From positions 1-47,295 of the forward strand of contig CANRHH010000019.1 of assembly GCA_947630375.1 (NCBI GenBank): a DNA stretch of 47,295 bases, read 5' to 3'. Below the pieces are notes generated by a model. That model saw only the letters and a program-made list of their open reading frames with translations, was not told the DNA's origin and searched no databases. The translations under genes and the position numbers were made by a program. The stretch is from an uncultured Oscillospiraceae bacterium. Its GTDB lineage: Bacteria; Bacillota; Clostridia; Oscillospirales; Oscillospiraceae. This document shows positions 5,903 through 47,295 of the stretch, one piece after another; position 1 is the first letter of the stretch; the number at the start of each line of letters is the position of its first letter.

Positions 5903-7969
5903 TTAGATCTTCATGCAGACGTCCCAGGCCCGCCAGATGACGGTGCGCAGGTTGCCGATGGCCACGCAGTCGCCCACGCGGTGGACATGGGCTTTCTTCT
6001 CACCCACGGGGGTGGGCACGAAGCCGATGCCGTTGACCACGTTGTCGCACTCCACCTTGAACTCCTTGCCGTCCTTGCCCTTGACCATCACATAGCCGTC
6101 GCCGAACTCGGTGATGGTGGAGTTCAGGTACACGGGCACCTGCTTGTACTCCAGCATGTCGCGCAGGAAGGAGGTGTTGGCCAGGCAGGTGGCCTGGGCC
6201 GCGATCAGGTCGGGCGCGTACTCCACGATGATGGGGTGCTTGCCCTGGAGGATCAGCTCATAGGCCGCCTCGCAGGAGGACTGGCCGCCGCCGAAAAACA
6301 GCACCTTGTCGCCCACGGGGACCTTATCCTTCAGAAGCTCGGTAAAGGTCAGGCACTTGCCGAAGCCGGGGATGGGCATGGTCCGGGGCACGGAGCCGGT
6401 GGCCACGATGATCTCGTCATAGCCCTTGAGGGTGTTCAGGTCGGTGATCTCGCTGTTGAGGCGGATGTCGATACCCTGCTTTTTGACCTCCCGCTTGTAC
6501 CACTCGATGAGCTCCTTGTCGTTCTCCTTGAAGCTCATGGCGGAGGCGGTGATGAACAGGCCGCCCAGCTCATTGGTCTTTTCAAAGACCACCGGGTGAT
6601 GGCCCCGCTGCTTGAGCACCAGGGCGCACTCCAGGCCGCCGATGCCGGCGCCGATGATGGCCACCTTCTTGGGATTCTTGGTGGGGACGATCTTATAGCG
6701 GTTGTGCTGCATGGTGCTGGGGGTCAGCGCGCAGCGGGCCAGGTGCAGCGAGTCGTCCAGGGACTGGAGGTTGGGCGTGCCCTTGTACTTGGCGAAGTTG
6801 AAGCAGCCGTTGTGGCAGCGGATGCAGGGCTTGATCTCGTCCTGCCGGCCCTCCATGATCTTGTTGACCCACTCCGGGTCCACCAGGTTCTGGCGGGCGA
6901 TGGCCACCGCGTCCAGACGGCCGGCGGCAATCTCCTCGGCGGCCTTCACCGGGTCCATACGGCCGGCGCAGACCACGGGGGCGGTGGTGAAGTTCTTGAT
7001 GTGCTCCACATATTCCAGGTTGCAGTTGTCGGGCATGTACTGAGGCGGATGCGCCCAGTACCAGGCGTCATAGGTGCCGTTGTCGCAGTTGAACATGTCA
7101 TAGCCGGCGTCAGTCAGGTACTTGATGGCCTTCTCGGACTCTTCCATGTCGCGGCCGAACTCCACGAACTCCTCGCCGGGCACCGCGCCCTTGCCCCAGC
7201 CCTTGGTCTTGGAGACCACGGAATACCGCAGGGAGACGGGGAAGTCCGCCCCGGCCTGCTTCTTGATCTCCTGCACGATCTCCACGGGGAAGCGGTACCG
7301 GTTCTCGAAGGAGCCGCCGTACTGGTCGGTGCGGTAGTTCATGTTGGCGATGGTGAACTGGTCCAGCAGATAGCCCTCGTGGACCGCGTGGATCTCCACG
7401 CCGTCTACGCCGGCCTCCCGGAGCTTCTTGGCGGTCTTGCCGAAGGCCTCCACCATCTCGTGGATCTCGTCCACGGTCATGGGGCGGGACTTCACATCTT
7501 CAGACCAGCGGTTGGGGGTGGCGGAAGCGGAGGCGCAGCTGTACTGCACGTCCACGATGGGGCTGGCCAGCTTGTTGAGGGTGTCGTTCTTGGCCAGGAC
7601 GGTCATCCAGTTGTTGATGGCCATGGAGCGGCCGAAGCCGGCGGCCAGCTGAATGAAGAGTTTGGCGCCGGTCTTGTGGAACTCTTCCATAAAGGGCTTG
7701 AGTTCCTTGAACATCCGGTCGTTCTGCCAGAGCCATTTGCGGCCGGGGATGCCCAGGGTGTCGCGGACACACTGCATACCGGGGAGGATCAGGCCCACGT
7801 TGTTCTGGGCCCGGTTCAGCAGGTGGTAGGCGGCCTCTTTGTCAAAGTGGTTGGGCTCCAGCCAGCCGAACAGGGAAGTGCCGCCCATGGAACACTGGAC
7901 AATGCGGTTTTTGATCTCCACATTGCCTATTTTCCAGGGGGTAAACAAAGCGCTGTATTTCTCGTCCAT
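5903..7969 (-). CDS. Old-yellow-enzyme-family flavin/Fe-S oxidoreductase (enoate or dienoyl-CoA reductase type)
   Basis: The 688-residue protein has the three-part build of 2,4-dienoyl-CoA reductase, trimethylamine dehydrogenase and clostridial enoate reductases. Residues 1 to about 370 form an FMN-binding TIM barrel with the active-site block GVEIHAVHEGYLLDQF. The cysteines of CIRCHNGC (from about 381) plus a later Cys (HLARC) bind a 4Fe-4S cluster. The C-terminal part has two nucleotide-binding folds, VAIIGAGIGGLECA (about 433) and VLFFGGGQSSCEAA, for FAD and NAD(P)H. Such enzymes reduce activated C=C bonds and often serve Stickland-type amino-acid reduction or bile-acid and dietary-acid reduction. 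A good AGAAAGGA ribosome site precedes ATG 7969. It is transcribed alone. The substrate cannot be read from sequence. Confidence 0.86.
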   Translation of the reverse strand: MDEKYSALFTPWKIGNVEIKNRIVQCSMGGTSLFGWLEPNHFDKEAAYHLLNRAQNNVGLILPGMQCVRDTLGIPGRKWLWQNDRMFKELKPFMEEFHKTGAKLFIQLAAGFGRSMAINNWMTVLAKNDTLNKLASPIVDVQYSCASASATPNRWSEDVKSRPMTVDEIHEMVEAFGKTAKKLREAGVDGVEIHAVHEGYLLDQFTIANMNYRTDQYGGSFENRYRFPVEIVQEIKKQAGADFPVSLRYSVVSKTKGWGKGAVPGEEFVEFGRDMEESEKAIKYLTDAGYDMFNCDNGTYDAWYWAHPPQYMPDNCNLEYVEHIKNFTTAPVVCAGRMDPVKAAEEIAAGRLDAVAIARQNLVDPEWVNKIMEGRQDEIKPCIRCHNGCFNFAKYKGTPNLQSLDDSLHLARCALTPSTMQHNRYKIVPTKNPKKVAIIGAGIGGLECALVLKQRGHHPVVFEKTNELGGLFITASAMSFKENDKELIEWYKREVKKQGIDIRLNSEITDLNTLKGYDEIIVATGSVPRTMPIPGFGKCLTFTELLKDKVPVGDKVLFFGGGQSSCEAAYELILQGKHPIIVEYAPDLIAAQATCLANTSFLRDMLEYKQVPVYLNSTITEFGDGYVMVKGKDGKEFKVECDNVVNGIGFVPTPVGEKKAHVHRVGDCVAIGNLRTVIWRAWDVCMKI

Positions 7970-39276: not shown

Positions 39277-40440
39277 ATGTTTGACATCAAAACCATGAAC
39301 AGCATCTCCCCGGCGGGGATCGCCGCCCTGGAGAAGAGAGGCTGCCGGGTCGGGCCGGAGGTGGAAAAGCCCCAGGGCCTGCTGATCCGCAGCGCCGATC
39401 TGCATGGGCTGGACTTCGGGCCGGAGCTGCTGGCCATCGCCCGGGCCGGGGCCGGGACCAACAATATCCCCGTAGAGGACTGCGCCGAGAAGGGCATCGT
39501 GGTCTTTAACAGCCCCGGGGCCAACGCGGAGGCGGTGAAGGAGCAGGAGATCTGCTCCATGATCCTGGCCTCCCGGGACGTGCTGGGGGCCATCGACTGG
39601 GTGAAGACCATCGCGGACAAGGGGGAGGAGATTCCCAGGCTGGTGGAGAAGGGCAAGGCCGCTTTCACCGGGCCGGAGCTGCTGGGCAAGAGCCTGGGCG
39701 TCATCGGCCTGGGGGCCGTGGGGGCTCTGGTGGCCAATATCGCCTTGGAGTTCGGCATGGAGGTCCACGGGTACGACCCCTTTATGTCCGTGGACGCGGC
39801 CTGGCGCCTGAGCCGGGAAGTGATCCACGCGGAGACGGTGGATGAGATCTATCGCAGCAGCGATTATATCAGCATCAATGTGCCCTATACCGACGCTACC
39901 CGCCACATGCTCAACGCCGAGGCCTTTGCCATGATGCGCGACGGGGTCCGGATCATCAACGAGTCCCGGGCCGAGGTGGTGGACGACGAGGCCATGACCC
40001 GGGCGCTGGAGTCCGGCAAGGTGGCCCGGTATGTGACGGACTTTCCCAACCAGGTGATTTTGAAAGCGCCCCATGTGATCGCCATGCCCCATTTAGGGGC
40101 CTGCACCCCCGAGAGCGAGGACCGCTGCGCGGCGATGGCCGCCGAGGAGCTCTATGACTACCTGAAAAACGGCAACATCAAGAACTCCGTGAACCTGCCG
40201 GACGTGTCCCTGAGCCGGATGGGCGTGTGCCGCCTGTGGGTGCTGCACCGGAACGTGCCCCGGATGATCACCAGTATCCTGGACTTTATCGGCAGGCTGA
40301 ACATCAACGTGGAGCACATGATCAACAAGCCCCGGGGGGCCTATGCCTGCACCATCGTGGACTTGGGGGAGACCATCGGCCCCGAGACCGCCGAGAGCAT
40401 CCGGCAGATGCGGGATGTGCTCCGGGTGCGGGTCCTGTGA
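39277..40440 (+). CDS. serA: Phosphoglycerate dehydrogenase-like D-2-hydroxyacid dehydrogenase with ACT domain
   Basis: The 387-residue protein has the split substrate domain and Rossmann NAD domain of D-isomer 2-hydroxyacid dehydrogenases. LLGKSLGVIGLGAVGALVAN is the NAD loop, and ARAGAGTNNIPVEDCAEKGI is the substrate-domain block. MPHLGACTPESEDRC holds the catalytic His. A C-terminal ACT domain (ILDFIGRLNINVEHMINKPR) could sense serine. It most likely oxidises 3-phosphoglycerate for serine synthesis. The catalytic Arg loop reads IINESRAEVVDDEA rather than the common N-x-x-R-G-G-x-V-D, seen in a clostridial subgroup. ATG 39277 follows GAGGGA. The MTA/SAH nucleosidase-like gene starts 11 bases after its stop. 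Confidence 0.88.
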   Translation: MFDIKTMNSISPAGIAALEKRGCRVGPEVEKPQGLLIRSADLHGLDFGPELLAIARAGAGTNNIPVEDCAEKGIVVFNSPGANAEAVKEQEICSMILASRDVLGAIDWVKTIADKGEEIPRLVEKGKAAFTGPELLGKSLGVIGLGAVGALVANIALEFGMEVHGYDPFMSVDAAWRLSREVIHAETVDEIYRSSDYISINVPYTDATRHMLNAEAFAMMRDGVRIINESRAEVVDDEAMTRALESGKVARYVTDFPNQVILKAPHVIAMPHLGACTPESEDRCAAMAAEELYDYLKNGNIKNSVNLPDVSLSRMGVCRLWVLHRNVPRMITSILDFIGRLNINVEHMINKPRGAYACTIVDLGETIGPETAESIRQMRDVLRVRVL

Positions 40441-40451
40441 GGGAGCAGACT

Positions 40452-41129
40452 ATGAAAAACATCGGCATGATCGTGGCCTGCGAGATCGACGCGGTGCTGG
40501 GCCGTTACGGCAGCCCCCTGTGGGAGGAGACGCGCTGCGGCTTCCCCGTGCGGTGCTACGCCATGGGGGAAAACCGCCTGGTGGTGGTCCACACCGGGGT
40601 GGGGGAGCTGGCGGCGGCCGCCGCCGCGGCCCTGCTGATCGACCGCTATGAGGCGGAGCTGATCGTCAATTTCGGTGTGGTGGGCGGCCTGACCGAGGAG
40701 ATGGCCCAGACCAAATGCTGCGTGGTGGAGAAGCTGGTCCACTATGATTTTGACACCAGCCATATCGACGGCACCGTCCCCGGCCAGTACGAGGGCATGG
40801 ACAGCGTCTATATCCCGGCCACGCGGTCGCTGGTGGACAAGGCTGTAGCCCTGTGCCCGGAGCTGAAGAAGGCCGTGTGCGCCTCGGCGGACAAGTTTGT
40901 GGACGGCCGGGAGAAAAAGGCGGAGCTGCACCGGCTCTACGGCGCGGACATCTGCGAGATGGAGTCTGCCGGGATCGCCCTGACCTGCCGCCGGGCAGGA
41001 GCGCCCTTCCTGCTGATCAAGGCCGTGTCCGACGGCCTCAACGGCGGCGCGGCGGAGTTCCACGCGGAGCTGGAGCGCTGCTCCCGCTTGTGCCTGGACC
41101 TGACAGACCGGATCATCCGGGAAATCTGA
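40452..41129 (+). CDS. 5'-methylthioadenosine/S-adenosylhomocysteine nucleosidase-like protein
   Basis: The 225-residue protein belongs to the nucleoside phosphorylase/hydrolase fold. The N-terminal MKNIGMIVACEIDAVL, the central LIVNFGVVGGLTEEMAQT and the active-site stretch DICEMESAGIALTCRRAGA with its Glu, then LLIKAVSDGLNGG with the catalytic Asp, match MTA/SAH nucleosidase. That enzyme releases adenine from by-products of SAM. The similarity is good but the N-terminal part differs from typical MtnN, so a related nucleosidase is possible. GGGAG precedes the ATG. It probably forms an operon with serA and the next two genes. Confidence 0.8.
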   Translation: MKNIGMIVACEIDAVLGRYGSPLWEETRCGFPVRCYAMGENRLVVVHTGVGELAAAAAAALLIDRYEAELIVNFGVVGGLTEEMAQTKCCVVEKLVHYDFDTSHIDGTVPGQYEGMDSVYIPATRSLVDKAVALCPELKKAVCASADKFVDGREKKAELHRLYGADICEMESAGIALTCRRAGAPFLLIKAVSDGLNGGAAEFHAELERCSRLCLDLTDRIIREI

Positions 41130-41148
41130 GAGAAATGGGGGAAAAGAG

Positions 41149-42714
41149 ATGGAGAGACAGCGCGAAAAAGAGCGGGATCTTTTGACCCGGTGCCGGGAGC
41201 AGATCAGGCCGGAGTGGAAAACGGCCTTTCTCTCCGCGTTTCTGATCGGCCTGGCTGCCCACCTCTATAAGTTCACCAACACCCTCTATAACCACGACGC
41301 GCTCTACTGCGTCTATGCCAGCAACGACATGGTGGAGTTCGGCCGCTGGTTTCTTGCCGCGGCCACCGCGCCCAGCTCCATGTTCGATCTGCCCTGGTTC
41401 AACGGGCTGCTGACGCTGCTGTACATCGCCCTGACCGCCGCTGTGGCGGCGGATATCTTCCGGCTTCGCCGCCCCGGCGCGCTGATCCTGTGCGGCGGGC
41501 TGCTGGCGGCCTTTCCGGCGGTGACCAGCACGATCTTCTATGAATACCTGTCGGACGGCTTCATGCTCTCCATGCTGCTTGCGGCCCTGTCCGTGCGGCT
41601 GAACTTAGTGGGGGACCGGACCAAATGGCATTTTCCCGTCTCGGCCCTGCTGCTGTGCCTGTCCTGCGGGATCTATCAGGCCTATGTGTCCTTTGCGCTG
41701 CTGCTGTCCATGAGCCATTTTATCCTGGTCCTGCTGGACCCGGAGCGGGATATCCGGGACTGCCGCCGCTGGATCGGCCGGCAGTTCCTGATCTACGGGG
41801 GCGGCCTGCTGCTCTACTATGGCGTGTGGAAGCTGCGCCTGGCGCTGCTGGGGTTGGGAGCCGCCAGCTACCAGGGCATGGATCAGATCGGGGCCCTGGG
41901 CCCGGCCGGCCTTTTAGGCGCCGTGAAGGAGATGGCCCAGACCCTGGCCTCCTTCCTGCTGGGCGGGAATGTGTTTGTATACGGCTGGACGCTGTACGCG
42001 GCGCTCAACGCCCTGTTTCTGCTGCTGCTGACAGGGGCGCTGGTCTACGCCGCGGCCAAGAGCGGGCTTTTGAAAAAACCGGAGCGGCTGGCCCTGCTGG
42101 CCCTGAGCCTCCTCTCTCTGCCCTTTTTTGCCTGTATCTGGCTGTTCGTCTCCCCCGGGGTCAGCTACCACGGGGTGATGCTCCAGAGTTTATGCATCCT
42201 GTATATCCTGCTGCTGGCCCTGGCGGAGCGCTGGCCCCGGGCCTGGACCCGGTCGGCCTCCGGGCTGCTGCTGGCCGCGCTGGTGTTCAAATTCGCCCTG
42301 ATGGCCAACGCCGCCTATTTTGAGATGGAGCGCTGCAACCGGCGGACGCTGATGGAGGCCACCGAGATGCTCACCCGCATCCATCTGCAGGACGACGGCT
42401 CCGTGACCCGGATCGCTTTTGTCGGCGGCGGGGAGCAGTCTATCGTCGCGGCGGGGGTCCCGGGGGCGGAGAAGCTGATGGCCGTGGCCCATCAGGTGAG
42501 CATGACGCTGCTGTATGACCACACCCATGCCTCCCTGCTCTTTACCAATGTGCTGGACAGCGGCTATGTCCCGTTAGACGACGGGGAGCTGGAGGCGCTG
42601 ATCGCCTCCGGCCAGACGGCGGACATGCCCGCCTGGCCCCTGGAGGGCTCCGTGCGCGTGATCGGGGACACGGCGGTGGTCCGCCTGCCGGACGTGCCGG
42701 AGAGCGCGGAGTAA
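41149..42714 (+). CDS. GtrII-like polytopic glucosyltransferase-domain protein
   Basis: The 521-residue protein has about ten to twelve spans and the pattern of the GtrII-like glucosyltransferase family (GT-C fold). YNHDALYCVYASNDMVEFGR lies in the first outer loop and could hold the acidic catalytic residue. LPWFNGLLTLLYIALTAAVA and FYEYLSDGFMLSMLLAALSV are typical membrane blocks. Such proteins move glucose from undecaprenyl-phosphate-glucose to surface polymers, but clostridial members are mostly untested. The final ~120 residues (about 400-521) are hydrophilic and probably outside. The gene lies 19 bases after the nucleosidase gene and 12 before alaX. Confidence 0.75.
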   Translation: MERQREKERDLLTRCREQIRPEWKTAFLSAFLIGLAAHLYKFTNTLYNHDALYCVYASNDMVEFGRWFLAAATAPSSMFDLPWFNGLLTLLYIALTAAVAADIFRLRRPGALILCGGLLAAFPAVTSTIFYEYLSDGFMLSMLLAALSVRLNLVGDRTKWHFPVSALLLCLSCGIYQAYVSFALLLSMSHFILVLLDPERDIRDCRRWIGRQFLIYGGGLLLYYGVWKLRLALLGLGAASYQGMDQIGALGPAGLLGAVKEMAQTLASFLLGGNVFVYGWTLYAALNALFLLLLTGALVYAAAKSGLLKKPERLALLALSLLSLPFFACIWLFVSPGVSYHGVMLQSLCILYILLLALAERWPRAWTRSASGLLLAALVFKFALMANAAYFEMERCNRRTLMEATEMLTRIHLQDDGSVTRIAFVGGGEQSIVAAGVPGAEKLMAVAHQVSMTLLYDHTHASLLFTNVLDSGYVPLDDGELEALIASGQTADMPAWPLEGSVRVIGDTAVVRLPDVPESAE

Positions 42715-42726
42715 AGGAGAACCGCC

Positions 42727-43890
42727 ATGACCGAGAAGCTCTATTATGCCGACAGCCATCTGCATGTATTTACCGCCCGGGTCACCGGCTGTGAGGAGAC
42801 CGAAAAGGGCTGGGCCGTCACCCTGGACCGGACCGCTTTCTTTCCCGAGGGCGGCGGCCAGGCGGCGGACACGGGGGCCGTCGGACCCGCCCGGGTGCTG
42901 GATGTGCAGGAGCGGGCAGGGGAGATCCTCCACTATACGGCCACGCCCCTGGAGCCGGGGACGGAATACCCCTGCGCCCTGGACTGGGAGCAGCGCCTGC
43001 GCCGGATGCAGAACCACACGGGGGAGCACATCGTGTCCGGCCATGTGCACCGGCTGTACGGCCTGAACAACGTGGGCTTTCATATGGGCCAGCGCTGCCT
43101 GACCGTGGATTTTGACGGGGTTTTAAGCTGGGAGCAGCTGTTGGAGATCGAGCGGCTGGCCAACGAGACCGTCCGGGCCGACCTGCCGGTCACCGCCCGG
43201 TTCCCGGCCCCGGAGGAGCTGGCGGGGCTCTGCTACCGCAGCAAGTTGGAGCTGACGGAAAATGTGCGCCTGGTGGAGATCCAGGGGATCGACCTGTGCG
43301 CCTGCTGCGCGCCCCATGTGGCCCGGACCGGGGAAGTGGGGCTGGTGAAGCTGCTGGACGCCCAGAAGCACCGGGGCGGGATCCGGGTGGAGCTGCTGTG
43401 CGGCATGGACGCCTGCGAGGAGGTCCGCCTCCGGCAGGAGCAGGTGGCGGAGATCTCCCGGCTGCTCAGCGCCAAGCGGGACGAGACGCCCCAGGCTGTC
43501 CAACGGCTGCTGGAGGAGCGGGACCGGCAGAAGGAGCGGGCCGCGGCCCTGAGCCAGCGGCTGGCGGAGCAGACGGCAGCGGCCTTTGAGGAGCGGGAAG
43601 GGAACTTCTGCGTCTTTGAGGAGCTGCTGGAGGAAAACGGGGTGCGGGAGCTGGTGAATCTGCTCTCGGAAAAATGCAGCGGCCTTGCCGCCGCTTTTTT
43701 CCCGGACGGAGAGGGCTGGCGCTATATCATCGGCAGCAGGCAGCTGGACCTGCGGAAGCTGACCCGGGAGATCAACGCGGGCATCGGCGGCCGGGGCGGC
43801 GGGCAGCCCAGCATGATCCAGGGCCGGGCGGAAAAAAGCCGGGAGGAGATCGAAAAATTTATATATTCCATTCCGTTTAGACAAAAATGA
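42727..43890 (+). CDS. AlaX-L-type alanyl-tRNA editing protein with DHHA1 domain
   Basis: The 387-residue protein removes wrongly attached Ser or Gly from tRNA-Ala. RTAFFPEGGGQAADTG and MQNHTGEHIVSGHVHRLYG hold the first two zinc His (HTGEH..H). DLCACCAPHVARTGEVG supplies the Cys and His of the third block. A coiled coil (about 240-295) leads to a C-terminal DHHA1 domain ending in IGGRGGGQPSMIQG. It is therefore the long AlaX form, equal to the editing plus C-Ala parts of alanyl-tRNA synthetase. AAAGGAG precedes the ATG. The tRNA-Ala(GGC) of this window is a natural substrate. Confidence 0.9.
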   Translation: MTEKLYYADSHLHVFTARVTGCEETEKGWAVTLDRTAFFPEGGGQAADTGAVGPARVLDVQERAGEILHYTATPLEPGTEYPCALDWEQRLRRMQNHTGEHIVSGHVHRLYGLNNVGFHMGQRCLTVDFDGVLSWEQLLEIERLANETVRADLPVTARFPAPEELAGLCYRSKLELTENVRLVEIQGIDLCACCAPHVARTGEVGLVKLLDAQKHRGGIRVELLCGMDACEEVRLRQEQVAEISRLLSAKRDETPQAVQRLLEERDRQKERAAALSQRLAEQTAAAFEEREGNFCVFEELLEENGVRELVNLLSEKCSGLAAAFFPDGEGWRYIIGSRQLDLRKLTREINAGIGGRGGGQPSMIQGRAEKSREEIEKFIYSIPFRQK

Positions 43891-43954
43891 CGAAAGTGTA
43901 TAATAAATATCCAAAAATAACTGGAGAAATTCAGCTAATCTGACGAAAAATCCG

Positions 43955-43983
43955 TTGACAATATGTTAACATCTTGATAAAAT
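43955..43983 (+). promoter_or_regulatory. Promoter of the 2-hydroxyacyl-CoA-dehydratase-like operon
   Basis: TTGACA (43955-43960), 17 bases, then TAAAAT (43978-43983). The leader to the GTG start is about 90 bases. Confidence 0.85.
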
Positions 43984-44006
43984 AGACTCACAAGAGTGAG
44001 TTTGCC

Positions 44007-44036
44007 GGGCCCGGCGGGGCAGCTCCCGCCGGGCCC
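44007..44036 (+). promoter_or_regulatory. Strong leader hairpin upstream of the dehydratase-like operon
   Basis: GGGCCCGGCGGG (44007-44018) pairs perfectly with CCCGCCGGGCCC (44025-44036) around 6 bases, inside the 5' leader. TCGTAATCTCTTTGG follows, so it is not a clean terminator. A smaller ACTCA/TGAGT stem lies just before it (43986-44001). It may stabilise the mRNA or take part in attenuation. Confidence 0.6.
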
Positions 44037-44081
44037 TCGTAATCTCTTTGGACGGAAAGAAACTATTTTGGGAGGTATTCT

Positions 44082-45269
44082 GTGAAAGATCTCAAACACT
44101 TGATCTACTTTGAGGATCTGCTTCAGGAGGCCAACAACAAGCTTGTCCAGCAGGCAAAGAGCGAGGGAAAGTACGCCATCGGATATACGTGCTTCTTTAT
44201 GCCCGAAGTGCTCCTTGACCTGCCGGGCTGCTTCTCGGTCCGCCTGAGAGCGCCTCGCTGCACATCCCCGGACATCGCCACCTATTACATGTCGGCCCGT
44301 GTCTGCCACTATGGCCGGAGCCTGTTTGAACGGGCTCTGGAAGGCGGGTACAACTTCCTGGACGCCCAGATGGCCACCGAGACCTGCACCGTCACCTGCC
44401 GCTTCCAGGAGCATCTCCAGCGGATGGACGTGATCAAGAACCCCAACTTCTTCTGTGAGTTTATCGATGTGCCCTTTAAGAAGACCGAGAACAGCTATGT
44501 CCACTACCGGGAGCAGCTGCGTTTCCATGTGCTGGGCAAGCTCCACGAGAAGCTGGGCGTTGACGTGTCCGACGAGGCGCTGATGGCCGCCATCGAGCAG
44601 CAGAACGAGGTCAGCCGCCTGATCAACGAGATCGGCGACTACCGGAAGCTGGACAACCCCACCATCACCGGCTATGAGTTCGCCGTGATCCAGCTGGTGT
44701 CGCTGACCTGCCCCAAGTACCTGATCCTGCCCTATCTGCGGGAGACCGCCGAGGAGCTGAAGACCCGGGAGCCCGACGCCAAGCCCGATTTCCGCTGCAA
44801 GGTGGTGCTGGCCGGTTCCGAGAACGACGACCCGGATTTCACCAAGCTGATCGAGAGCTGCGGCGCCCGGGTGGTCTGCGACCGGTACTGCTACGGCGCG
44901 GTGGAGAGCCGGCAGATCATCCACGTGGCCGAGGGCCAGGACCCGCTGGACGCCATCGCCCGCCATTACCTGGACGCCAGCAACTGTCCCCGCTTCATGC
45001 CTCAGGACGTGATGCGCGGCCGGAAAAAGGAGCTGGCCCGGCTGGTGAAGGAGTACAAGGCCGATGGCCTGATCGTGGCCTCCAACAAGTTCTGCGAGTA
45101 TTGGAGCTATGAGCGCGTCATTGACACCATCGTGATGAAGCGCGATTTTGACATCCCCGTGTGTTCCATCGAGAAGGAGTACATAAACGCGGCCTCCGGC
45201 CAGCTGCGTACCCGTTTCCAGGCCTTCGTCGAAAGCGTTGAGATCAAGAAGATCCAGGAGGGCAAATAA
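44082..45269 (+). CDS. 2-hydroxyacyl-CoA dehydratase / benzoyl-CoA reductase family subunit (HgdB-like)
   Basis: The 395-residue protein has the family's cluster-binding layout. YAIGYTCFFMPEVLLDLPGC lies near the N-terminus, followed by ARVCHYGRSLFERALEGGYN and MATETCTVTCRFQEH, then a C-terminal LIVASNKFCEYWSYE. Cysteines in these blocks bind 4Fe-4S clusters that receive electrons from an ATP-driven activator. Members remove water from 2-hydroxyacyl-CoA (amino-acid fermentation) or reduce aromatic acyl-CoA. GTG 44082 follows GGGAGG. The next gene starts directly at the stop. The protein departs clearly from the HgdB and FldC sequences I know, so the substrate is open. Confidence 0.85.
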   Translation: MKDLKHLIYFEDLLQEANNKLVQQAKSEGKYAIGYTCFFMPEVLLDLPGCFSVRLRAPRCTSPDIATYYMSARVCHYGRSLFERALEGGYNFLDAQMATETCTVTCRFQEHLQRMDVIKNPNFFCEFIDVPFKKTENSYVHYREQLRFHVLGKLHEKLGVDVSDEALMAAIEQQNEVSRLINEIGDYRKLDNPTITGYEFAVIQLVSLTCPKYLILPYLRETAEELKTREPDAKPDFRCKVVLAGSENDDPDFTKLIESCGARVVCDRYCYGAVESRQIIHVAEGQDPLDAIARHYLDASNCPRFMPQDVMRGRKKELARLVKEYKADGLIVASNKFCEYWSYERVIDTIVMKRDFDIPVCSIEKEYINAASGQLRTRFQAFVESVEIKKIQEGK

Positions 45270-46889
45270 ATGGCTAAGAAGATCAAAAACAAGGAAGAGC
45301 TGAAAAAGCTGGCCAAGGACTTCTGGTACGGCAAGCCCCACGGCGAGCGCCACCTGGGCGAACTGTACATAGAAAAGACCGGCCTGTACAAGCACAGAGA
45401 GTGGCGCGGCGTCAGCGACACGATGTATTATTTCTATAACGTCTGGCTCTACAACTACGCGATGATGGTCTATGACCTGATCCGCTACGGCGGCTTGGGC
45501 GTCTTCCTCAAGGGCGTGTGGCGCTACCGCTGGGTGGGCCAGACCTACCTGACCGTTATGCACTGGTTCGACCGGGGCATGGAAGGTATGCGGGGCGAGG
45601 TCCTGCGGGCCGCTCCCTGGCACTACCGCGGCATGGTCAGCGAGACCATCCGCCAGTTCCAGCACATGTTTGCCGCCGACGCCAACCTCCACGGCGGCAA
45701 GCACAACGACGCCTGGCACCACACCATGGCCCACAACGAGACCGTCTGGGGCGGCATCTTCTACCCCTGGCGGGATAAGTTCGAGAACGTGGCCATGGAG
45801 ATGATCCCCTATTTCGTCACCTGCCACGTGAACTCCCACACCGTCCAGAACTACATCGACGCGGTCCAGTCCATCGGCCTGCCCGGTGACCCCTGCCCCA
45901 TGTGCCAGGCGGAGGCCGGCCTGTTCGTGCTGGACGACATGCCCGATTATTCCCCCTTCGTCATCACCTCCAACGAGGCCTGCGACGCGTCTGTGTCCAC
46001 CTCCATCCTGCAGGACTGGTTCCTGGACAAGCCCCTGTTCGCCATGCCCCAGCCCATGCAGTTTGACGATCCTCTGGTCCACAAGCACTGCATGAACGAG
46101 ATCGAGGAGTGCTGGAAGTTCATCGAGGAGCAGACCGGCGTGCCCTTCAACTGGGAGATGCTGAAGAAGCACCTGGAGCAGCAGAACGAGCTGCAGGAGT
46201 TCGAGCACGAGAAGTGGGAAGTGTCCGCCAAGACCAACTCCTATCCCATCAACGGCGTGGCCCAGGCCCTGTACCGGATCTACTACAGCCAGGACGGCGA
46301 CCACGAGATCTGGCACCACTGCGACAAGAAGGTCCGCAAGGTGCTGGAGCGCTGCGTGCGCAACAAGACCAATACCTTCCCCAACACCCGGCACCGGGTC
46401 ATCGCCTGGTCCTGCGCGCCGCTGTTCTTCTCCAACTGGCCCACCTGGGCGTATAACTGCTGGGGCCTGAACGTCATTATCAACATGGACTCCCTGATGT
46501 TCGACATGACCATCCGCACCGACAGCTATGAGCACGCCCTGGAGGACATGGCCACCTATCACATGTGGGCCCCCATGCGGCGCATGGCCGTGGGCGGCAT
46601 GCACCACATCTTCGAGCTGTGGGAGAACATGGAGAAGTTCAACTGCGACTTCGTCATGATGTATGACCAGCTCCAGTGCAAGGGAATGCAGGGGGTGCAC
46701 GGCCTGTTTGAGGACGAGTTCCGGGATCGGAACATCCACGCCATCTGGATGCCCCACGCCCTGCCGGACAGCCGCACCGTCACCCGGGCGGAGATCCGCC
46801 GCATCGTCAACGATTACATGACCACCGTCATGCACGAGGAGCCTTTGGATCCGTCCCTGCTGGACTTCGACGATTCCATGGGCTGGTAA
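45270..46889 (+). CDS. Large second subunit of the 2-hydroxyacyl-CoA dehydratase / BCR family
   Basis: The 539-residue protein is the partner of the preceding gene. The central block GLPGDPCPMCQAEAGLFVLD and FVITSNEACDASVSTSILQD show the cysteines and the CD-type strand ends of the family. A further Cys set lies in RVIAWSCAPLFFSNWP. It is longer than the family norm (about 380-480). The first ~115 residues, rich in Tyr, Trp and Phe (YYFYNVWLYNYAMMVYDLIR), have no counterpart I recognise. It starts at the base after the stop of the first subunit, with AGGAGG inside that gene. The two probably form a heterodimer with cluster and substrate site at the interface. The substrate is unknown. Confidence 0.8.
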   Translation: MAKKIKNKEELKKLAKDFWYGKPHGERHLGELYIEKTGLYKHREWRGVSDTMYYFYNVWLYNYAMMVYDLIRYGGLGVFLKGVWRYRWVGQTYLTVMHWFDRGMEGMRGEVLRAAPWHYRGMVSETIRQFQHMFAADANLHGGKHNDAWHHTMAHNETVWGGIFYPWRDKFENVAMEMIPYFVTCHVNSHTVQNYIDAVQSIGLPGDPCPMCQAEAGLFVLDDMPDYSPFVITSNEACDASVSTSILQDWFLDKPLFAMPQPMQFDDPLVHKHCMNEIEECWKFIEEQTGVPFNWEMLKKHLEQQNELQEFEHEKWEVSAKTNSYPINGVAQALYRIYYSQDGDHEIWHHCDKKVRKVLERCVRNKTNTFPNTRHRVIAWSCAPLFFSNWPTWAYNCWGLNVIINMDSLMFDMTIRTDSYEHALEDMATYHMWAPMRRMAVGGMHHIFELWENMEKFNCDFVMMYDQLQCKGMQGVHGLFEDEFRDRNIHAIWMPHALPDSRTVTRAEIRRIVNDYMTTVMHEEPLDPSLLDFDDSMGW

Positions 46890-46901
46890 GGAGGAAAAGC
46901 G

Positions 46902-47126
46902 ATGAAAAAATGCAAATGCAAGCTGGGCAAGCTGCTTTTGAAGCTGCTGGGCGGTCTGCTGGTGGCCAATGTGGCGCTGTTCTTAGTGTTCTTCTTCGAC
47001 CTGGACGGCAAGCTGCTGTTCTATGTGGGCGAGCCCATGCTGAAGAAGCACTATGACAACATGCCCCGGAAGGATACCCTGAAGGCGCCCTACGACGTGG
47101 ACAAGTATCCCTCCTACGAGTACTGA
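46902..47126 (+). CDS. 74-residue single-span membrane protein of the dehydratase-like operon
   Basis: The protein has a basic, Cys-containing start (MKKCKCKLGK), one strong membrane span (about 10-31, LLLKLLGGLLVANVALFLVF) and a hydrophilic tail that ends in acidic and Tyr-rich residues (YDVDKYPSYEY). I know no family for it. A good AAGGAGG site precedes the ATG, and it lies 12 bases after the large subunit and 38 before the activator gene, so it is a real operon member. It could anchor the complex to the membrane or link it to an electron donor; this is a guess from position. Confidence 0.7.
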   Translation: MKKCKCKLGKLLLKLLGGLLVANVALFLVFFFDLDGKLLFYVGEPMLKKHYDNMPRKDTLKAPYDVDKYPSYEY

Positions 47127-47164
47127 TTTTTAGACTATAAAGAAAAGAAAGAAGGCAAAACCAA

Positions 47165-47295
47165 ATGAAATACTATGGCGGCTGCGATGTGGGCTCCACT
47201 TACACCAAGGCGGTGATCCTGGACGAGAACGGCAAGATGGTAGCGGACACCACGATCCGCAGCAAGATCAATTCCGAGGCCAGCGCCATTGCGGC
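47165..47295 (+). CDS. ATP-dependent activator (BadF/BadG/BcrA/HgdC-type ATPase), 3' partial
   Basis: Only the first 43 codons are inside the window. MKYYGGCDVGSTYTKAVILD contains the phosphate-binding loop DVGSTYTK of the acetate-kinase/Hsp70-type fold used by 2-hydroxyacyl-CoA dehydratase activators. These homodimers carry one 4Fe-4S cluster between subunits and push single electrons into the dehydratase at the cost of ATP. The cluster cysteines lie beyond the window. The position after two dehydratase-like subunits supports the call. AAGAAGG precedes the ATG. Confidence 0.88.
   Translation, partial: MKYYGGCDVGSTYTKAVILDENGKMVADTTIRSKINSEASAIA

Follow-up and report, generated by a model that had tools for sequence, protein, structure and literature searches.

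The window analysed here is a 47,295-nucleotide stretch that forms the complete contig CANRHH010000019.1 (C19) of an uncultured Oscillospiraceae bacterium, probably from the gut (assembly GCA_947630375.1; 64 contigs, 2.33 Mb, 95.9% complete, 2.65% contaminated). Its last 3.2 kb carry a run of genes, all on the plus strand, for two HGD-D subunits (A and B), a small membrane protein (SM) and the start of an activator. With moderate confidence, we interpret this system as a new branch of the benzoyl-CoA reductase/2-hydroxyacyl-CoA dehydratase (BCR/HAD) radical enzyme family that would have BzdNO-like cluster chemistry, perhaps be tied to the membrane and act on a substrate other than the usual CoA ester. 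The enzyme would be oxygen-sensitive and is related to others that use ATP-energised electrons against highly stable bonds. The architecture and the family assignment are well supported: two HGD-D subunits occur together with a BadF/HgdC-type activator, and the predicted substrate subunit has the [4Fe-4S] ligand triad. A first-pass annotation of this DNA had described an operon of two such subunits and an activator, and these genes are real (Pfam matches for A and B, and an activator N terminus at the contig end), but it overlooked the fourth gene, SM. The features are as follows.

44082..45269, + strand: subunit A, HGD-D, 395 aa (Pfam; aligned to BzdN)
45270..46889, + strand: subunit B, HGD-D, 539 aa (Pfam; profile alignment to HadB, BzdO and MbdO; fold model)
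45270..45614, + strand: helical N-terminal extension of B (residues 1-115), not covered by the alignment to the HGD-D fold
46902..47126, + strand: SM, predicted single-pass membrane protein of 74 aa (GGAGG at 46890-46894; conservation)
47165..47295, + strand: activator, BcrAD_BadFG ATPase, first 43 codons, broken by the contig end (identity to an intact relative)
43955..43983, + strand: sigma-70-like promoter, predicted, TTGACA-17-TAAAAT with TG before the second hexamer (consensus scan, 11/12 matches)

Six cysteines of A (C37, C75, C102, C270, C302 and C338) align onto C36, C73, C100, C263, C293 and C327 of BzdN, which are described as the six ligands of its [8Fe-9S] double cubane (PMC11971306), and all six were kept in 120/120 distinct A sequences. 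The distinct A set (frames of at least 380 aa) and the equally large distinct B set (frames of at least 480 aa) were gathered by B-based searches, in which the DNA search patterns contained C397 of B and none of the nine ligands considered here; the conservation of C397 (118/120) is therefore a biased figure. Of the six positions in A, HadC retains four and MbdN three, and HADs are stated to have lost the double cubane (PMC11971306). A likely carries an [8Fe-9S] double cubane, and its six ligands, taken together with three in B, lead us to predict that the pair is built like BzdNO. The full ligand set in A bears out an earlier hint at double-cubane relatives, and the placement in the HGD-D/activator family stands, although the pair is predicted to have the architecture of BzdNO and not that of HgdAB, FldBC or HadBC.

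All characterised-enzyme models in NCBIfam scored A far below their cut-offs: 144.1 bits versus 350 for double_cubane (NF040772), its best match in NCBIfam, 86.3 versus 453.8 for BzdN (TIGR03190), 85.4 versus 700 for HadC (NF052456) and 58 versus 421 for BcrC. Similarly, when 37 A rows (picked from the 120 at 82% identity) were placed in a tree with BzdN, the double-cubane cluster protein (DCCP), HadC and MbdN as references, 36/37 rows grouped in a single clade (100/99) with a long stem, and the four references and one weak row (L141) fell outside it; the order of the references is unsure because their branches are long (4.6 to 6.3). The divergence claimed in the first-pass annotation is thus upheld, and A did not group closely with any characterised enzyme.

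In B, C209 and C238 align onto C95 and C128 of BzdO and onto C84 and C117 of HadB, C470 was placed on the third ligand through the MbdO alignment only, and all three residues were kept in 120/120 distinct B sequences. B is predicted to be the substrate subunit with one [4Fe-4S] cluster on these residues; in BzdO, the three matching cysteines are described as holding the catalytic [4Fe-4S]-OH2 cluster (PMC11971306). The model of B gave fold matches to HadB, BzdO and DCCP, with BzdO as the best Foldseek match. Among NCBIfam models, double_cubane scored B at 35.4 bits versus the cut-off of 350, and HadB gave no match up to E 1. His131 of BzdO is not retained in B, where, as placed by profile alignment, Ser241 stands in 117/120 sequences.

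The second subunit had been noted as oversized at ~539 residues, with an unfamiliar N-terminal part of ~115, and both observations hold. The HGD-D fold begins at residue 116, and the 115 residues ahead of it carry the motif REWRGxxDT...YRW...DRxxxGxRG, with 10 invariant positions in 29 aligned rows. Modelled alone, the extension gave a weak model (predicted local distance difference test score 72.4, predicted template-modelling score 0.55) that had no Foldseek match at E <= 10, which, given the weak model, is no proof of a new fold. The extension was also considered as a membrane anchor, and this idea was dropped: in Wimley-White and Kyte-Doolittle interface scans, residues 40-115 were not more interface-prone than the remainder of B (mean best 19-mer of SM-type B on the Wimley-White scale, -7.2 versus -9.1), a weak comparison because the remainder is longer and not length-matched.

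SM has one predicted transmembrane helix and the tail motif [ND]LDxK...EP...KHYD. An SM profile match was found 3' of 99 of the 118 distinct complete B genes that had enough sequence after them (searched from 60 bases before to 500 after the B end; one further B lacked room); this count was used in place of a motif-rule count (78/122), which missed real cases. In the source genome, an SM-type gene of 51-92 aa follows each of five A/B pairs. The ratio of nonsynonymous to synonymous substitution (0.11-0.27 between the window SM and seven relatives; 0 to 0.32 over all 28 pairs among these eight) indicates that SM evolves under purifying selection. A database search with SM returned 728 candidates, 727 of which matched at E <= 0.01; none of the 120 SM matches listed had a Pfam domain, and the names given were 'hypothetical' (two) and 'uncharacterized membrane protein' (one). 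It is plausible that SM attaches the A-B complex to the membrane, and its small gene offers a simple marker for spotting A-B-SM systems.

Near 18 of the 19 B genes without SM, a CooC-like and/or mini-CdhC-like gene plus an activator lay within reach, and a CooC-like or CdhC-like gene was also close in 11/99 SM-bearing cases. The sole exception among the 19 (L112:1-2616) has an activator and, after it, B, and gave no match to A or SM. On the A tree, the SM label needed three changes. A sister cassette, in the order CooC-like ATPase, A', B' (~516 or 594 aa), activator and a CdhC-like protein of ~230-270 aa, was seen at L092:2228-7764 and at loci L098, L101, L108, L114, L150, L155 and L156. The mini-CdhC-like protein (Pfam CdhC E 2e-4, below the cut-off; PDB 3git E 3e-5; C-x2-C-x5-C tail) appears to resemble part of CO dehydrogenase/acetyl-CoA synthase. 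CooC and mini-CdhC were also considered as parts of the source-genome system, a reading rejected because neither was found there, in searches that had no positive-control genome. A window-type A-B-SM-activator operon followed by a mini-CdhC-like gene occurs in Candidatus Limivicinus faecipullorum (L046:1446-6309).

The activator piece in the window is identical to an intact relative at 41/43 residues and scored 13.7 bits against TIGR00241, for which it is too short; the intact homologue at locus L092 scored 218.5 bits versus the cut-off of 125.4. Contig C8 of the same genome starts with an activator end, of which 75 aa are identical to residues 190-264 of the L046 relative, followed by an opposite-strand gene that we take to be FtsH-like. 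The two pieces may belong to one gene; 146 activator residues lie in neither contig. Outside the window, activator-domain matches in the genome were limited to the C8 piece and a two-domain protein on C22 (L017:1670-5915; ~996 aa, two BcrAD_BadFG stretches plus DUF2229, with a 421-aa partner), which we take from its architecture to be PlsA-like and which, with its partner, is a candidate plasmalogen synthase. One activator type was seen in the genome, as N-terminal and C-terminal pieces on two contigs. Many contigs of metagenome-assembled genomes (MAGs) stop inside the activator gene (window 47165-47295, L039-L041, L050 and others), the protein start is highly alike across relatives, and such contig ends are probably assembly breaks at shared sequence.

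The operon probably consists of A, B, SM and the activator and ends after the latter. The B start codon directly follows the A stop codon, and the GGAGG site lies 7 bases 5' of the SM ATG. A consensus scan of 43800-44200 gave two promoter-like sites versus a shuffle mean of 0.5; the one at 43955..43983, ~100 bases upstream of A, is predicted to serve as the operon promoter. No riboswitch match was found upstream of the operon in an Rfam scan of 40000-47295.

The single divergent operon that had been proposed is real but is one of five A/B pairs in the genome and part of a wider family. B relatives were found in 25/25 genomes of the same genus (source included, some only as fragments) and in 0/15 genomes from other families of the order. 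In surveys that scored at most three candidates per genome, they occurred in 13/395 genomes of the order (E <= 1e-30, source included, two families) and in 2/398 genomes of a phylum sample (E <= 1e-20), namely the source and one with an HGD-D-level match only. A scan of named genomes, of which the best 80 of 487 loci were kept, returned titles that refer to MAGs or to uncultured assemblies or scaffolds; many name Oscillospiraceae, Ruminococcaceae or Clostridiales and others Lachnospiraceae, Erysipelotrichaceae or Solobacterium, and most titles naming a source give animal guts or rumens. No publication on the A-B-SM family was recognised from titles and abstract starts, a coverage that excludes most subscription journals.

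In the mechanism that we propose, the activator would, as in the rest of the family, use ATP to drive very-low-potential electrons into A, where the putative double cubane would store them. A would then hand the electrons to the [4Fe-4S] cluster of B, which would have one open iron with water or hydroxide, and B would perform one-electron chemistry on the bound substrate, either a reduction or a reductively started dehydration. One activator would serve all five A/B pairs, and SM would tie the A-B complex to the membrane, the whole being perhaps a membrane-attached, ATP-driven radical reductase or dehydratase. The extension of B is placed immediately before the helix that lines the CoA channel in BzdO, and this position, together with SM, suggests that the substrate is not one of the CoA esters usual in fermentation. 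As to the new substrate suggested earlier, nothing shows that it is a CoA ester, as it would be in two of the options given there.

Several points weigh against this interpretation. The cluster types are based on ligand conservation only, and the extension scores no more interface-prone than the rest of B in the comparison given above, which is weak and not length-matched. SM is absent after 19/118 B genes, and the family therefore does not always need it; further, SM charges predict an N-in/C-out orientation in 76/78 cases (two equal), which would make the conserved tail extracellular and so separate it from A and B. The genome also makes CoA esters, as indicated by five AMP-binding matches and one family-III CoA-transferase match, none beside a pair, and absences in the source genome are not final because the MAG is 95.9% complete.

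The metabolic setting of the genome argues against standard Stickland or benzoyl-CoA pathways. Electron-transfer flavoprotein (ETF) and acyl-CoA dehydrogenase had no match in the source genome, with controls matched in 10 and 9 of 14 genomes. None of the five AMP-binding matches is on C19, all being at least 20 kb from any pair or on other contigs, and the one CoA transferase, from a search that covered family III only, is 23 kb away from the pair on contig C6, in agreement with the earlier remark that no CoA-pathway genes adjoin the operon. An (R)-2-hydroxyacyl-CoA dehydratase of the classical type known from amino-acid fermentation (HgdAB, HadBC or FldBC) with an unusual B is improbable: the missing ETF and acyl-CoA dehydrogenase matches speak against it, as do the six ligands of A, two of which HadC lacks, the low HadC score and the location of the sole family-III CoA transferase within a bai-like cluster. 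The upstream dehydrogenase, which we take to be serA of serine synthesis because its homologue comes after a gene that we regard as serC-like in four relatives, points the same way.

An aromatic acyl-CoA reductase of the class I benzoyl-CoA reductase type, acting on plant or host aromatics, has an equally small chance in our view. It would fit the predicted cluster pair, which is that of BzdNO, and the top Foldseek match of B (BzdO), and old yellow enzyme (OYE)-type flavoenzymes, of which the genome has seven frames (645-766 aa) plus one short piece, could reduce dienes further; two are in the bai-like cluster and one in the window (6836-7948). An OYE/BaiCD-like gene shares the locus with A-B-SM relatives in 12/80 loci, but 11 of these 12 also hold a CooC-like or CdhC-like gene, so that the OYE link may belong to the sister cassette. 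The BzdN score, the distant AMP-binding ligases and the lack of any sign of a second activator subunit (not conclusive) count against it as well. A double-cubane protein serving as a small-molecule reductase (acetylene, azide, hydrazine) or as a redox or stress enzyme without organic substrate would suit the best NCBIfam match of A and the single activator type, which DCCP-R also has, but is the least probable, since A is below the DCCP cut-off, DCCP pairs two identical subunits that each carry a double cubane whereas B shows a three-ligand pattern, and five retained paralogues would point to several substrates.

As for the BzdNO-like, possibly membrane-tied enzyme that we favour, the setting makes it likeliest that it would act on a lipid or on gut compounds that are unsaturated or hydroxylated. 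The bai-like cluster (C6, ~24.9-38.3 kb; L172:883-14266) encodes a ligase at 839.5 bits versus the BaiB cut-off of 650 (bile-acid--CoA ligase), two OYE flavoenzymes, one at 821.3 bits versus the BaiCD cut-off of 825 and the other presumably BaiH-like, a short-chain dehydrogenase, a major facilitator superfamily transporter, the family-III CoA transferase and a 176-aa protein that we take to resemble BaiE (no NCBIfam match at E 1e-20); the source lineage may 7-dehydroxylate bile acids. Near the other pairs, an iron-containing alcohol dehydrogenase gene adjoins a pair on C2 and a dicarboxylate symporter gene precedes the one on C6. An HtpG (Hsp90) gene shares the locus in 15/80 loci, with L057, L089, L092, L098 and L101 among the HtpG/OYE loci.

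More tentatively, and as a possibility that we would not yet bet on, these proteins may be a class of membrane-tethered, CoA-independent radical reductases that combine BzdNO-like cluster chemistry with a transmembrane partner of their own and a new substrate-capping domain. One activator would feed the five paralogues of the source genome, and Oscillospirales of the gut and rumen, few of which are cultured, would use such enzymes for the reduction or dehydroxylation of gut compounds of lipid-like, steroid-like or aromatic nature. A lipid substrate would have a precedent in plasmalogen synthase, which has been described as a HAD-family member (PMC12838417), two reductase genes being reported to turn diacyl lipids into plasmalogens (PMC9702350). 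According to PMC11971306, the double cubane had been reported for DCCP only before BzdN, and enzymatic Birch reduction is limited by its CoA-ester requirement. A gut family that combines the BzdN ligands with an extra domain and a membrane neighbour would extend the range over which the double cubane is known and offer a starting point in the search for low-potential chemistry without CoA. The A-B-SM family is a concrete lead toward new anaerobic gut chemistry.

Among the closest known systems, BzdNO, the class I BZD-type benzoyl-CoA reductase (PDB 8S02), resembles A-B as a heterodimer of a six-cysteine and a three-cysteine [4Fe-4S] subunit and in the fold of B, but differs in that A scores far under the BzdN cut-off, B carries an additional 115 residues and a replaced His131, and an SM gene is present. 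HadBC (2-hydroxyisocaproyl-CoA dehydratase, PDB 3O3M) shares the fold of B and its ligands (HadB C84 and C117), whereas C37 and C270 of A have no counterpart in HadC and the fermentation partners were not found in the source genome. The PlsA-like protein, so called from its presumed architecture, is separately present on C22. DCCP (PDB 6ENO and 7YYL) has the six ligands of A and gives its top NCBIfam match, but is described as a homodimer with one double cubane per subunit (PMC11971306), whereas A and B are encoded by two different genes. Finally, plasmalogen synthase PlsA/PlsR is likewise a HAD-family enzyme and acts on a membrane lipid (PMC12838417, PMC9702350), but, unlike in A-B, its activation and reduction domains are described together (PMC12838417).

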